A stretch of DNA of 64,000 nt, taken from NCBI RefSeq assembly GCF_013376105.1, contig NZ_JAAMFM010000014.1, forward strand, positions 1-64,000. The letters run 5' to 3'. The translations under genes were made by a program, and so were the position numbers. This document shows, one piece after another, positions 10,991 through 15,165 of this stretch. Source of the stretch: Arthrobacter wenxiniae (GTDB lineage: Bacteria; Actinomycetota; Actinomycetes; Actinomycetales; Micrococcaceae). Each line of letters starts with the position of its first letter. The first letter of the stretch is position 1. The notes below the pieces were generated by a model. It was not told the DNA's origin. It ran no database searches and saw nothing but the letters and a program-made list of their open reading frames with translations.

Positions 10991-11067
10991 CGGGCTGTAG
11001 CGCAGCTTGGTAGCGCACTTGACTGGGGGTCAAGGGGTCGCAGGTTCAAATCCTGTCAGCCCGACCA
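10991..11067 (+). tRNA. tRNA-Pro (anticodon GGG)
   Basis: A cloverleaf fits fully. The acceptor stem CGGGCTG pairs with CAGCCCG at 11057-11063. The anticodon stem CTTGA/TCAAG encloses CTGGGGG with anticodon GGG, the T-arm contains GGTTCAAATCC, and the discriminator A is followed by an encoded CCA. The 3' 36 nt of the gene are duplicated at 15130-15165, marking it as the integration target of the prophage remnant. The encoded CCA appears to come from the element, because the right-hand copy reads CCG. Confidence 0.97.
11031..11066 (+). repeat. Attachment site attL in the tRNA-Pro 3' half
   Basis: These 36 bp match 15130-15165 exactly, in the same orientation. They cover the anticodon-stem 3' side through the T-arm and acceptor to CC. 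The identity ends at A versus G, the last base of CCA. This is the classic core duplication left by a tyrosine integrase in a tRNA gene. Confidence 0.93.
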
Positions 11068-11069
11068 AC

Positions 11070-11109
11070 AAAGGCCGGAATTCCGCAGAAATGCGGGGTT
11101 CCGGCCTTT
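11070..11109 (+). terminator. Hairpin after tRNA-Pro / integrase 3' end
   Basis: The arms AAAGGCCGGAA and TTCCGGCCTTT are perfectly complementary (11 bp). A secondary GC hairpin lies in the loop. It sits 3 nt after the tRNA CCA and just beyond the integrase stop, so it can end transcripts from both sides. It belongs to the element, not the original host locus. Confidence 0.75.
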
Positions 11110-11122
11110 AGTCGTTTCTGGG

Positions 11123-12420
11123 CTAATTCGCTATTGGGGACATTCTGGGGACATGCAAAACGGTTGCTTTGTTCCTGAGCGCTTCCGCCCTGGCGGCTTC
11201 CAGCGCGTTGGACACCTCGTCCAGCCTGTCCGGCCATAGGTGCCCGTAGGTGTTGAGCGTTTCCGTGGCGTCCTTGTGGCCGAGCATCTGCTGCACGACC
11301 TTGACGTCCGCGCCGGCGGCTATGGCGGCGCTTGCTGCCTTGTGGCGTAGCTTGTGCGGTGTGATGCCCAGTGCGTCGAGGTCCGCGTCTTTGGCTGCAA
11401 TGTTGAACTCGCGGGTACGCCAGTTGCCGTCGTCCATGGGCCCGCCCCGAGCTGCTTGGAACACGTAGGCGGCCGGCGGCTGGCCGGCGGTGACCTTTAC
11501 CAGCTCGTCCACCAAGAACCGCGGCAGCGGCATGCTGCGCCGCTCGTGAGTTTTCGGGGTACCAAGTACCCGCTTGCCGGCCTTGTCGACGGTTCATGTT
11601 TGCAGGATCTGGGCGCGGGCCTGAACAAGTTCAGGTCCCCGACTGTGAGGGCTAGGGCTTCATCGATGCGCAGCCCTGTGTACGCCAAGAACTGGAACAG
11701 GGCCCGGTCCATTTCGGCGTCGGTGACGCCGTGCGCGGCCGTGGCCAGGTCGTCTACCTGCTCGTGGCTGAGGTACACGTGGTCGGCGGGTATGACGCGC
11801 GGCAGCTTGACGCCGGCGGCCGGGTTGCGGCCTATGCGGTCCGTCTCCACTGCCCAGCCCATGACGGCTGAGAACACGGTGTGCAGGTGGTCCACTGACG
11901 CCGGCGTGAGCGGCCTGCGCATGGTGCCGGCCCGGTGATACTGCGCCGGCTCTGTTCCGCGGATCTTGTATCGGGCAGGGGCGGTGCTGGCGGATAGGTG
12001 CGCTATCCAGCCGGCGACCTGGGCTTTGGTAATCGTCCCAATCTTGACGCTCTCCCATTTCGGCAGGACGTAGGAGCGCAGCTCCCGCTCGTATCGGCGG
12101 TAGGTTGCCGGCTTTATGTTCAGCCGGGTTGCCAGCCATTCGGCCGCGACGACGGCGACGAGTGTTTCGGCGTTCTCCGGCGGCCGATACGTGCGGGCAC
12201 GCAGGTCGTTTTCAATCTTGGTTACGAACTGTTCCGCGTCTCCCTTGCGGCCGAACTGCTGGGACCGCCGGCGTTTGGTCCGGCCCTGTGCGTCCGGGAC
12301 TATCGCTTCCCACCAATAGGCGCGCCAGCGCTTGCCCACGCCGTGCTTGGCTGTCTGCTGCTTGTCCGCGGTCAGCCACTCGTACTCAATCCACGCGCGC
12401 GCCACGGCTCCCGCTCTCAC
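11123..12420 (-). pseudogene. int: Tyrosine site-specific integrase, inactivated
   Basis: The N-terminal part (12420 down to about 11625) carries the arm- and core-binding regions and the first catalytic Arg in AYTGLRIDEAL. The C-terminal part, in another frame, carries HKLRH, LGHKDATET and the nucleophile Tyr in LNTYGHLW. The two are joined only if a frameshift near 11615-11630 is corrected. The corrected frame then meets a TGA at 11594-11596 where a Trp codon would be expected (TWTVDKAGKR). All catalytic residues are otherwise present, so the lesions look recent. The C-terminal codons overlap the GGGGACAT repeats. Confidence 0.9.
11134..11156 (+). repeat. Putative left arm-type integrase site (two GGGGACAT)
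   Basis: Two GGGGACAT motifs start at 11136 and 11147, 11 bp apart. They lie within a 23-bp segment that recurs with two differences at 14980-15002, in the same orientation, near the other end of the element. They lie inside the integrase 3' coding end. Confidence 0.65.
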
Positions 12421-12611
12421 TGGTGGCGGTCGTCGGCGTACTCATGGCTGTGGCTCGCATTGCGTCTGTGCTGACTAACCATCCGTCCGGCGTGTCGCCA
12501 ATGATGCGCGCCGCCTGTGCCGCGGCGTCCCCGACCGGCTTGCCGACCACGGGTTCCCTGTTGTCGTTGGTGACGGCTTCCAGTGCGTGCTACTGCGTTT
12601 GTGTTGTCCAT
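12386..12611 (-). pseudogene. Small element gene upstream of int, frameshifted
   Basis: An ATG at 12611 opens a frame (MDNTNAVA). A second frame from about 12585 reads LEAVTNDNREPVVGKPVGD and ends at 12386, overlapping the integrase start. One extra base near 12586 would explain the break; removing it gives a continuous protein of about 75 residues. The overlap at both ends suggests an operon leading into int. The product is unrecognised; an excisionase would fit the position, but no helix-turn-helix is evident. Confidence 0.5.
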
Positions 12612-12806
12612 TCTACCGCCTGCAGCTGGGACTCAACGGCCCCGAGAGTCCGCGCGTAAGCTGCCGGGTCTTTCGACGCGTATGCCCGGTTATCCCCTAT
12701 GCGCTGCGGGAGTTCTTCCCGGGCGGCTTCCATCCGTCCCCAGTTGTCACGCAAGTTCGCAATCGTGCGCCGCGCGGAAGCGTAAGCGTGATCGGCAGCC
12801 GTCTGC
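12590..12806 (-). pseudogene. Element protein remnant, 5' truncated
   Basis: The minus-strand frame ending at 12590 reads as a coding-like, helical, charged protein (ARRTIANLRDNWGRM, then ARTLGAVESQLQ). Its stop overlaps the ATG of the next small gene, as in a compact phage operon. Upstream of about 12800 the same frame becomes the antisense of the capsid fragment, so the true 5' end is missing. Function is not recognised. Confidence 0.45.
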
Positions 12807-13617: not shown

Positions 13618-14405
13618 AATGCCTACATCCAATCTGTTGGTAACGATCAGACGCGAGACAGCTACAAGTAGCCACACCATGCGTGCGGAGGTCTATGTAG
13701 GAAAATTGACACCGACACACACACGTGGATAGTCTTTGAACACAAATTGATCGTGGAAGATAAAATTTGTAATCCAATTAAGAGACGGCCAACCCATCTG
13801 GGGCTGGCTGTCTCTTTGACGTCGTCACATCTAACTCCCAGTATACAGTGAGCGCGACGCCTGTGCACTGGGAGAAGGGTGTCGAATTACAAGTATGTCA
13901 TTTACCACCGTGTCGTCCACAGGCAATCGAACCTTCGTGTGTTAGAAACCGGTAGTTCTGCCCCCGCTATCCACAGCCTGTGGATTACTTGCACACAAAA
14001 AAACGGCGGCGTGTCGGCTCCGCTCGGCGTGTCGACCTAGCGGGTGCGGTGTTCAATGAGCGCCACATCCCTGTTTGCACGCAGATTATCAAAATCATTG
14101 GATTCGCCCAGCTGGAACGCAACGAGTCCCGCGTCAATTCGACGAACTGCGGACCGGCACGGACCGGGCGGGGGTGAATCTCGGCCACCGTCCGATTCGT
14201 GCCGGTAGGGGCGTCGCAATCACTGCCACCGGGGCCGGAATACCCGAGTGGCCGGAAGTGGCCTTCCCCCCTGCGCCTTGAGGGGGTCGCGTGTACGCAC
14301 GTGCGCGACGGACAACTAGCAATAAAACGTAGACACTGGCCTGGATACGGCCGACGACTATCTCCTCTCAAGATGCCAGAGGGCCGCTGACGCGGTACAA
14401 GTGAG
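13618..14405. other. Stretch with no supportable gene (prophage interior)
   Basis: No open frame here has convincing coding character. Visible items are a hairpin at 13780-13815 (AGAGAC-G-GCCA with TGGC-T-GTCTCT), which may be a terminator, and an inverted repeat GTCGCG/CGCGAC at 14286-14309. The local composition is lower in GC than the host genes, consistent with foreign or eroding DNA. Confidence 0.6.
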
Positions 14406-14894
14406 TTAGCGTGGGGAGGTGTCGCCCGGTGACAGCTTCTCTTGGGACATTTCCCCCGTTGTCAGCTGTACGGATACGGCGTGCCGGCTGCGTTGTTTCA
14501 CTGGGGCCGTCAGGTACGTCATGCGGACCGACGCGTGGTCCTGCATTGTTTGCAGCGTCGCCGTTGGGTCATTCTCCGGTGGCGGGTCAATGTTGACCCT
14601 GATCTGTACAGCTTGGCCCGGCTCAATCCGAGAGAATGTTTGTATGCCGTCCCCCATGGCAATAATGGCGCAGCCGGTGCCCTTGGCCTGGGCGTGGATA
14701 GCAGCAGCGTCCCCTACATTAGTTAGCGTGACCGTGAAGGCGCCTGGCGCGCCTATAGTGTTGCGCTCCGGCAGCCACTCCACTTGGGGCCTGTCCTGGT
14801 GGTATCGCCAAATGACCCAGCCGCCTGTGCCTGCTGCTGCTGCAGCGAGTCCTGTTGTGATGATCCACCCTGTGAAGTTCTGCCACCATTGCAT
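14406..14894 (-). CDS. Orphan protein with N-terminal membrane anchor
   Basis: A 162-residue protein. Residues 8-30 form one transmembrane segment (IITTGLAAAAAGTGGWVIW). The rest is a beta-rich soluble domain (TVTLTNVGDAAAIHAQAKGTG, EPGQAVQIRVNI) with the look of an immunoglobulin-like or CARDB-like fold facing outward or inward. No Shine-Dalgarno is visible upstream of the ATG. It is the largest intact gene of the island and reads toward the interior from near attR, a typical cargo position. Not recognised as a named family. Confidence 0.65.
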   Translation of the reverse strand: MQWWQNFTGWIITTGLAAAAAGTGGWVIWRYHQDRPQVEWLPERNTIGAPGAFTVTLTNVGDAAAIHAQAKGTGCAIIAMGDGIQTFSRIEPGQAVQIRVNIDPPPENDPTATLQTMQDHASVRMTYLTAPVKQRSRHAVSVQLTTGEMSQEKLSPGDTSPR

Positions 14895-14979
14895 GCTGTG
14901 ACTGTAAGCCGGTCAACGGCAAGCGCACCAGTGGTGGCAGGGCCGGTCGGACAGGGTTTGAGGGCTGGCGGATGTTCCT

Positions 14980-15002
14980 TTAGGGACATTTTGGGGACAT
15001 GC
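14980..15002 (+). repeat. Putative right arm-type integrase site
   Basis: A near copy of 11134-11156 in the same orientation. AGGGACAT at 14982 and GGGGACAT at 14993 keep the same 11-bp spacing, and both segments end in GC. It lies about 130 bp inside attR. Confidence 0.65.
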
Positions 15003-15129
15003 CGACAGAATGGGCCGATATTTGGGCGCACCCTGAGGCTCAGGAAATGTTCTATTTAGCCGCGTGGTTCCGGCGTTTTTTGGCTCTATCGTATCTACGG
15101 CCATGTGCCGATATTTGGGCTTTTTGCGC

Positions 15130-15165
15130 CAAGGGGTCGCAGGTTCAAATCCTGTCAGCCCGACC
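15130..15165 (+). repeat. Attachment site attR (tRNA-Pro 3' fragment)
   Basis: An exact 36-bp copy of 11031-11066. No 5' half of a tRNA lies upstream, so this is not a functional tRNA gene. It is followed by CGAAAA, presumably the original host sequence after the tRNA. Confidence 0.93.

Follow-up and report, generated by a model that had tools for sequence, protein, structure and literature searches.

A decayed mobile element at a tRNA-Pro gene of Arthrobacter wenxiniae, very likely a phage satellite

Which kind of mobile element was once integrated behind the tRNA-Pro gene of Arthrobacter wenxiniae, and what is left of it? The question is raised by a stretch of 64,000 nucleotides (contig NZ_JAAMFM010000014.1, positions 1 to 64,000; hereafter, the window), in which the 3' part of a tRNA-Pro gene recurs about 4.1 kb downstream, and the interval between the two copies had been read as a prophage remnant in an earlier note on this DNA. 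That name is appropriate in that the element was integrated and has decayed, but it is too broad, because the nearest relatives of its integrase and its capsid protein are found in small satellites or serine-recombinase elements. As judged from the sequence, 11031-15165 is very likely a decayed phage satellite that was formerly integrated by a tyrosine integrase at the 3' end of tRNA-Pro, and roughly half of the satellite unit has been lost. The assignment to this class depends on the relatives, because the window retains only two recognizable element genes, both of which are broken.

Borders and broken genes of the element

The window contains a single complete tRNA-Pro(GGG) gene, the 3' part of which is a 36-nt repeat with two exact copies at a start-to-start distance of 4,099 nt (Table 1). 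The window has no third match even when up to 3 mismatches are allowed, and none appeared in 100 shuffles; the copy at 15130 is a tRNA 3' fragment only. The exact duplication of tRNA-Pro described in the earlier note is thus confirmed, and its reading of the two copies as the borders of an element integrated at the tRNA 3' end is supported by the exact repeat and also by the sites of the relatives. When 10991-15300 was compared with the own genome (88 contigs, 4.33 Mb), the matches besides itself were five short pieces resembling tRNAs or terminators. Inside both attachment (att) sites sits a 23-nt arm-like repeat (21/23 identical, two heptamers each), and paired heptamer repeats were also noticed near both ends in six of the 15 repeat-bearing relatives (G283, G276, L208, L209, L212, and L220; G numbers denote genomes and L numbers loci), with heptamers that differ from element to element. 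Given their similar place in the relatives, the paired heptamers are probably arm sites, and the integrase would bind them together with the core.

Beside attL, catalytic C-terminal integrase homology spans 11207-11593 on the minus strand, and only one frame break separates it from the N-terminal and middle part of the enzyme; the GC content at third codon positions (GC3) of both pieces is gene-like (0.81-0.82). A tyrosine integrase, the integration gene of an actinobacterial candidate phage-inducible chromosomal island (PICI), is hence present but broken into two pieces. The other recognizable gene encodes an HK97-type major capsid protein, of which only the C-terminal quarter is left: the fragment is 51% identical (tblastn) to residues 342-443 of the 443-residue capsid at L130, and seven relatives have open capsid frames of 385-461 aa. 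The statement in the earlier note that no intact integrase or structural module is present is correct in that neither is intact, but a near-complete integrase in two frames and the capsid C-terminus do exist. Among viral contigs, the integrase N-terminal piece had no relative and the capsid fragment was found at one locus; distant DNA matches of the element to phages were short pieces in 3 records. Between the two genes, at 12421-12796, tblastn with the relatives' open reading frames (ORFs) gave no match at E 0.01, and a repressor trace considered there was rejected, as a comparison at E 10 gave chance-like matches only. Neither portal nor terminase was detected among nine window ORFs tested with Pfam, PHROGs, and NCBIfam-type models, and the element does not therefore qualify as a capsid-forming PICI; tail, lysis, and packaging modules were also not detected among the nine, which describes the present state only, since a remnant could have lost them.

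The tRNA-Pro site was compared in 20 stretches from 19 genomes of the genus, 15 of which hold der, tRNA-Pro, and an acyl-CoA dehydrogenase gene together (the names der and acyl-CoA dehydrogenase were assigned by eye from window ORFs). In three of the 15, tRNA-Pro is less than 200 nt away from the end of the dehydrogenase gene (62 nt in G010, 172 nt in G022, and 151 nt in G001). In G010 and also in G021, a stretch with no dehydrogenase match, tRNA-Pro is directly followed by a diverged version of the terminator-like repeat (15171-15204) that follows the second repeat in the window, and these two are considered, from their sequences, to be empty sites. The earlier note had expected an empty site with CCGAAAACGTGAGGCAG after the tRNA; the empty site was indeed found, but in the relatives inspected that literal sequence was not seen word for word, and the diverged homologous terminator stands there instead. 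In G004 (L038), tRNA-Pro is occupied by another element, 15 kb long and flanked by 0-mismatch copies of the 36 nt; among its ORFs are ones that resemble, by eye, an integrase, a repressor, an excisionase, DnaB, and a tape-measure protein. DNA homologous to the terminator again follows the second copy, and the tRNA-Pro site has therefore been reused. The remaining 11 of the 15 stretches have 2-13 kb between the tRNA and the dehydrogenase gene, in which no tRNA repeat reaches 14 nt. The interior of the window's element (11067-15129) is missing from 22 other genomes of the genus apart from short pieces; namely, 12 of the 22 match, but only over ~40-155 nt each, and 13 of the 15 pieces fall at 13886-14039.

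Table 1. Positions of the element's features and borders in the window
Feature	Position	Strand	Basis
tRNA-Pro (GGG), complete; target gene and left border	10991..11067	+	ARAGORN; Rfam RF00005, 65.3 bits
attL core, 36-nt direct repeat, copy 1	11031..11066	+	repeat search
Tyrosine integrase, C-terminal part, second frame (open ORF 11123-11533, homology to 11593)	11123..11593	-	PF00589 E 1e-14; phrog_1; tblastn with relatives' integrases
Arm-like repeat, two GGGGACA-type heptamers 4 nt apart	11134..11156	+	21/23 identical to copy at 14980
Tyrosine integrase, N-terminal and middle part (ORF continues past frame break to 11497)	11620..12420	-	PF14659; PF00589; phrog_1 E 4e-36; tblastn
Gap where relatives have repressor, excisionase, replication-type genes, and most of capsid gene	12421..12796		no convincing trace
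HK97-type major capsid, C-terminal fragment, ~100 aa	12797..13108	+	PF05065 E 2.4e-7; TIGR01554 over cut-off; 51-53% to capsid C-terminal quarter in L130, L136
44-aa ORF, GTG start, overlaps end of 45-aa gene	13349..13483	-	no family match
45-aa gene, phrog_5079 family	13480..13617	-	phrog_5079 E 5.5e-15
Homologue of host nrdH-nrdI upstream region, reads towards 45-aa gene	13886..14037	-	DNA matches; NrdH/NrdI models over cut-off at two loci
162-aa ORF, hydrophobic stretch (by eye); cargo or chance ORF	14406..14894	-	no relatives of note
Arm-like repeat, second copy	14980..15002	+	same repeat family (D14) as copy at 11134
attR core, 36-nt direct repeat, copy 2 (tRNA 3' fragment)	15130..15165	+	repeat search
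Terminator-like inverted repeat, read as native tRNA-Pro terminator displaced rightward by the element	15171..15204	+	homology to G010, G021, G004

Relatives in the Micrococcaceae and the origin of the element

When 295 genomes of the Micrococcaceae were searched, the integrase N-terminal piece matched 39 of them at 1e-10 and the capsid fragment 26 at 0.001, the own genome included, and we examined the best 18 of the 41 non-own places of the integrase as well as all 25 non-own places of the capsid. Paired flanking repeats were measurable in 14 of the 18 integrase loci and are all 6.2-10.6 kb apart: 7.8, 9.0, 8.9, and 8.3 kb in G283, G222, G276, and G239, and 8.6, 10.6, 8.6, 9.9, 9.5, 9.7, 8.4, 8.8, 9.5, and 6.2 kb in L208-L214, L216, L220, and L221, respectively. 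The four loci that were not sized (L215, L217, L218, and L219) have no repeat pair, and the last three end at contig ends. In 13 of the 14 measured elements, the repeat end lies inside a tRNA gene called by ARAGORN (Ser, Tyr, or Leu; in L220 by the second-listed repeat), and L212 has no called tRNA there. Two more small elements with a weaker integrase match were noticed, namely G062 (8.1 kb between 20-nt repeats, outside any called tRNA) and L163 (9.5 kb between 37-nt repeats, at tRNA-Thr), and G216 and G155 have no repeat at 18 nt and, by eye, a serine-recombinase-like ORF each.

The order of genes in the relatives, as tested, is integrase (-), helix-turn-helix repressor (phrog_11503, -), excisionase (phrog_66, +), replication-type genes, one capsid gene (phrog_10, +), and variable cargo; in the 14 L-numbered integrase loci, the excisionase was matched in 13 and the repressor in five. 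No portal or tail family was hit when 20 selected ORFs of four relatives were compared with PHROGs, and the sole terminase match among them (phrog_57, E 3e-4) came from a protein that matched excisionase more strongly. Also, the Pfam models of portal (PF04860 and PF05133) and large terminase (PF03354) each hit none of eight satellite genomes, with the two portal models and the terminase model positive, as controls, in 4, 2, and 3 of 14 named genomes. When four prophage-like loci of the family were searched with Pfam, all of them had a portal match, three had a terminase match, and two matched a tape-measure type tail protein, in one case below the cut-off. The portal and terminase models therefore work in this family.

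Ranked by bit score, the nearest relatives of both genes favor a satellite. The integrase N-terminal piece scores 88-109 bits with the 18 best family loci, 56 bits with L163, 45 bits with G062, and 40-41 bits with G155 and the prophages L161 and L167. For the capsid fragment, the scores are 103-111 bits with G216, G283, and G222, 62-64 bits with G155, G062, and G276, and 56 bits with the prophage L156; the rest score 29-54 bits, where small elements and prophages are mixed. Seven of the 25 capsid places are small or serine-recombinase elements (including G216, G155, and G062), and the other 18 comprise 10 prophage-like loci, two small elements (L163, which is new, and one that is L214), two loci with serine-recombinase-like ORFs, and four unclassed ones. 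The capsid family as a whole is thus common to small elements and prophages.

Several points, nonetheless, weigh against a satellite origin. Of the 18 additional capsid loci, 10 have the appearance of full prophages (four by Pfam and six by eye), and three of these are in the genus of the window (G015, G001, and G007). A capsid match was obtained in only four of the 14 L-numbered integrase loci, two of them weak (E 4e-7 and 1.6e-8), and the stretches of these 14 loci are at most 18.5 kb, in which repeats more than ~18 kb apart would not show. The window yielded no remnant of a repressor, an excisionase, or a replication gene, and the class rests on relatives at 29-34% identity for the integrase N-terminal piece (the 18 best loci) and 48-54% for the best capsids. 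Together with the HK97-type capsid fragment and the phage-type integrase, both being gene types that phages carry, and with deletion being usual in prophage decay, the prophage-like loci would fit a remnant of a full-size temperate phage (30-50 kb) having lost ~90% of its genome between the att sites. We regard this as improbable, however, given that the measured integrase relatives are as small as described above, that the integrase piece scores less than half as high with prophage loci, that the prophage capsids rank below those of the best small elements, and that the best integrase match in 50,697 phage records shows just 33% identity over 81% of the piece.

A composite origin, in which a small integrative element received its cargo (the 45-aa gene with the nrd-like leader and the 162-aa gene) and perhaps the capsid piece separately by recombination, is a possibility of some weight, albeit not the one that we favor. 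It would be consistent with the GC3 of the cargo ORFs (0.56-0.74 versus 0.81-0.88 for integrase and capsid) and also with the nrd-like region and phrog_5079 occurring together elsewhere, i.e., by eye, near a resolvase-like gene (G222:C34) and near restriction-like or conjugation-like genes (L203 and L202). The relatives, however, usually carry variable cargo next to attR, and no separate cargo event is therefore needed at tRNA-Pro. Slightly less probable still than the prophage remnant is that sequencing or assembly introduced the break in the integrase and that the element remains able to excise; a single frame break was seen, both cores and the arm-like repeats are intact, and the integrase GC3 is gene-like, but no excisionase was found and the capsid gene is cut, so that the element is decayed even if the break were an error. 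The idea in the earlier note that the unit cannot excise by itself is plausible, with the reservation that both cores and both arm-like repeats survive and that the one frame break is possibly an error.

A decayed satellite at this site would have had the following history. Integration at the tRNA-Pro 3' end left the tRNA complete at the left border and a 36-nt copy of its 3' part at the right border. To judge from the relatives, the ancestor may have been ~8-10 kb long, with an integrase, a repressor, an excisionase, a replication-type gene, one HK97 capsid gene, and cargo beside attR, and would have been transferred only with a helper phage giving portal, packaging, and tail, while its own capsid protein perhaps redirected or replaced the head. 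An internal deletion would have eliminated the regulators and the replication gene and shortened the capsid gene to about its last quarter, and a frame break would have arisen in the integrase, with the 45-aa gene and a truncated nrd-like leader remaining as cargo. Given this deletion and the frame break, the unit is probably fixed now.

The phrog_5079 gene and its nrd-like upstream region

The 45-aa protein matches phrog_5079 over its full length (residues 1-45 to profile positions 4-48 of 49). A search with the single sequence found nothing, but an alignment search succeeded and revealed a very large family (7,476 of 7,993 scored candidates at 0.001); no function name was present among the 120 relatives listed, and in four phage records examined, the gene is located in a region with an antirepressor gene. 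The 162-aa ORF was matched in five of 294 other genomes with E 2.9e-4 to 7.8e-4, which we took as chance, and had no relative among viral contigs; PADLOC gave no match for the three cargo ORFs of the window. The suggestion in the earlier note that open interior genes are candidates for retained function finds slight support in the 45-aa gene: its frame is intact and its family large, but the leader usually present upstream of it is truncated in the window. As for cargo in the relatives, G276 has beside attR a 419-aa protein matching PADLOC capP/RmrA with a 176-aa neighbor (L134, 17264-19050), a possible defence pair, and G222 has a phrog_1281 protein followed by a phrog_1758 acetyltransferase (L132, 16520-17626), which presumably resemble a toxin-antitoxin pair.

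Upstream of the 45-aa gene, 13886-14037 matches DNA in 74 of the 295 family genomes (own included; 69-90% over matched pieces), and nrdH- and nrdI-like genes adjoin 36 of 37 matched loci tested; in an NCBIfam run on two nrd loci, NrdH and NrdI were confirmed in both. The region retains an inverted TCCACAG..TGTGGA, a repeated CGACACGCC, and part of box 2, and box 1 was not found in it; we take these elements to be a DnaA-box-like inverted repeat and NrdR-like boxes. The nrd copy of the own genome (G000:C56:63593-63667) is only 74% identical over the matched part, and the piece in the element is therefore not a recent duplicate. The exceptional locus (G019:C17:12493-12557; L168 about 9494-9558) is the closest nrd-like copy, 88% over 65 nt, and is not at nrd; it belongs to an island near tRNA-Thr that has integrase-, repressor-, and excisionase-like genes, and is close to a tRNA-3'-end-like sequence.

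In G222:C34, an nrd-like region also stands upstream of a phrog_5079 gene, and the DNA upstream of phrog_5079 was compared at 10 loci including the window, L202, and L206; the latter two were found through the micropeptide described here and are a biased sample for it. A conserved 24-mer (0-4 mismatches) occurs in seven of the 10, at -427 to -486 in six and at -285 in the window, and was not found upstream in G120, G033, and G099. An ORF of 18-21 residues with a RIRI-type core is present at -147 to -163 in seven, namely six 24-mer loci and G120, and was not found in the window, G099, or G033 (where another Arg-rich ORF at -353 was left uncounted). An upstream hairpin has a stem score of 11-12 in five (G222, G207, G146, G167, and L206) and 7 in G033, G099, and L202, with none in the window or G120. 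The nrdH-nrdI-type region, the Arg-rich micropeptide, and phrog_5079 follow one another at similar spacing in L144, L146, L147, L149, L202, and L206, and the module in the window (13480-14037) is truncated. When 84,980 species genomes were scanned for the micropeptide pattern, six loci were obtained in species named as Arthrobacter, Pseudarthrobacter, and Psychromicrobium, genera of the Micrococcaceae (a placement confirmed for two of the species), all with a phrog_5079 match downstream; one viral contig matches the pattern without phrog_5079 downstream.

As a relic, the element is ordinary. Its unexpected part is the mobile nrd-leader module, which is a lead worth following. We propose that the module combines a control region of the nrdHI type that was captured, a leader in which a strong hairpin is frequent, an arginine-rich micropeptide of 18-21 aa, and the phrog_5079 small protein. 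Quite tentatively, the cargo might represent, in degraded form, a hitherto undescribed mobile module of the Micrococcaceae, which satellites and islands would use to switch on a small-protein system when the deoxynucleoside triphosphate pool of the host falls, e.g., upon phage attack. Through an nrd-like leader before a phage-type small protein, mobile cargo would be tied to the nucleotide control of the host, which would be unusual.

Described satellites and side observations

Candidate PICIs of Mycobacterium, including phiRv1 and phiRv2, are described in PMC10654092 as integrated regions with an integrase and a major capsid protein, those with a tyrosine integrase being in tRNA genes and one with a serine integrase not. 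The relatives in the Micrococcaceae are split similarly, with tyrosine integrases at tRNAs and serine-recombinase-like ORFs in G216 and G155, and a tRNA target with att repeats, as in the tyrosine type, is found in the window; the bacterial family is different, however, the window copy is broken, and the likeness is one of description. Capsid-forming PICIs (PMC10690885) resemble these elements in having an integrase and their own capsid gene and in needing a helper for tails, but they also encode portal, protease, connectors, and terminase, whereas the relatives in the Micrococcaceae showed the capsid gene only. The Streptomyces satellites MulchRoom and MiniFlayer (PMC10690885) are likewise actinobacterial with their own capsid gene but have terminase, portal, and scaffold genes and terminal repeats. 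In a literature search that mostly excluded subscription papers, none of the papers listed (10 of 5,400 in one case) dealt with lone-capsid satellites of the Micrococcaceae or with phrog_5079, and passages of PMC10530653, PMC11389934, and PMC11719660 gave nothing on them.

The relic leads to a set of satellites of 6-11 kb at tRNA genes within a single soil-bacterial family. In some of them the capsid gene stands alone, and both the helper phage and the role of a single capsid protein therefore become testable there. Three prophage-like loci (L151, L158, and L159 in G015, G001, and G007, respectively) have distant capsid relatives and tape-measure-like genes and are candidate helper types.

Elsewhere in the window, a tRNA-Arg(CCG) call of ARAGORN at 17712-17811 (-) overlaps protein-like ORFs without an Rfam tRNA match and is probably false. 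Between der and tRNA-Pro, the intergenic DNA at 10710-10880 contains tandem-like repeats of CCGGTGGTTGAGCTTGTCGAAACC.

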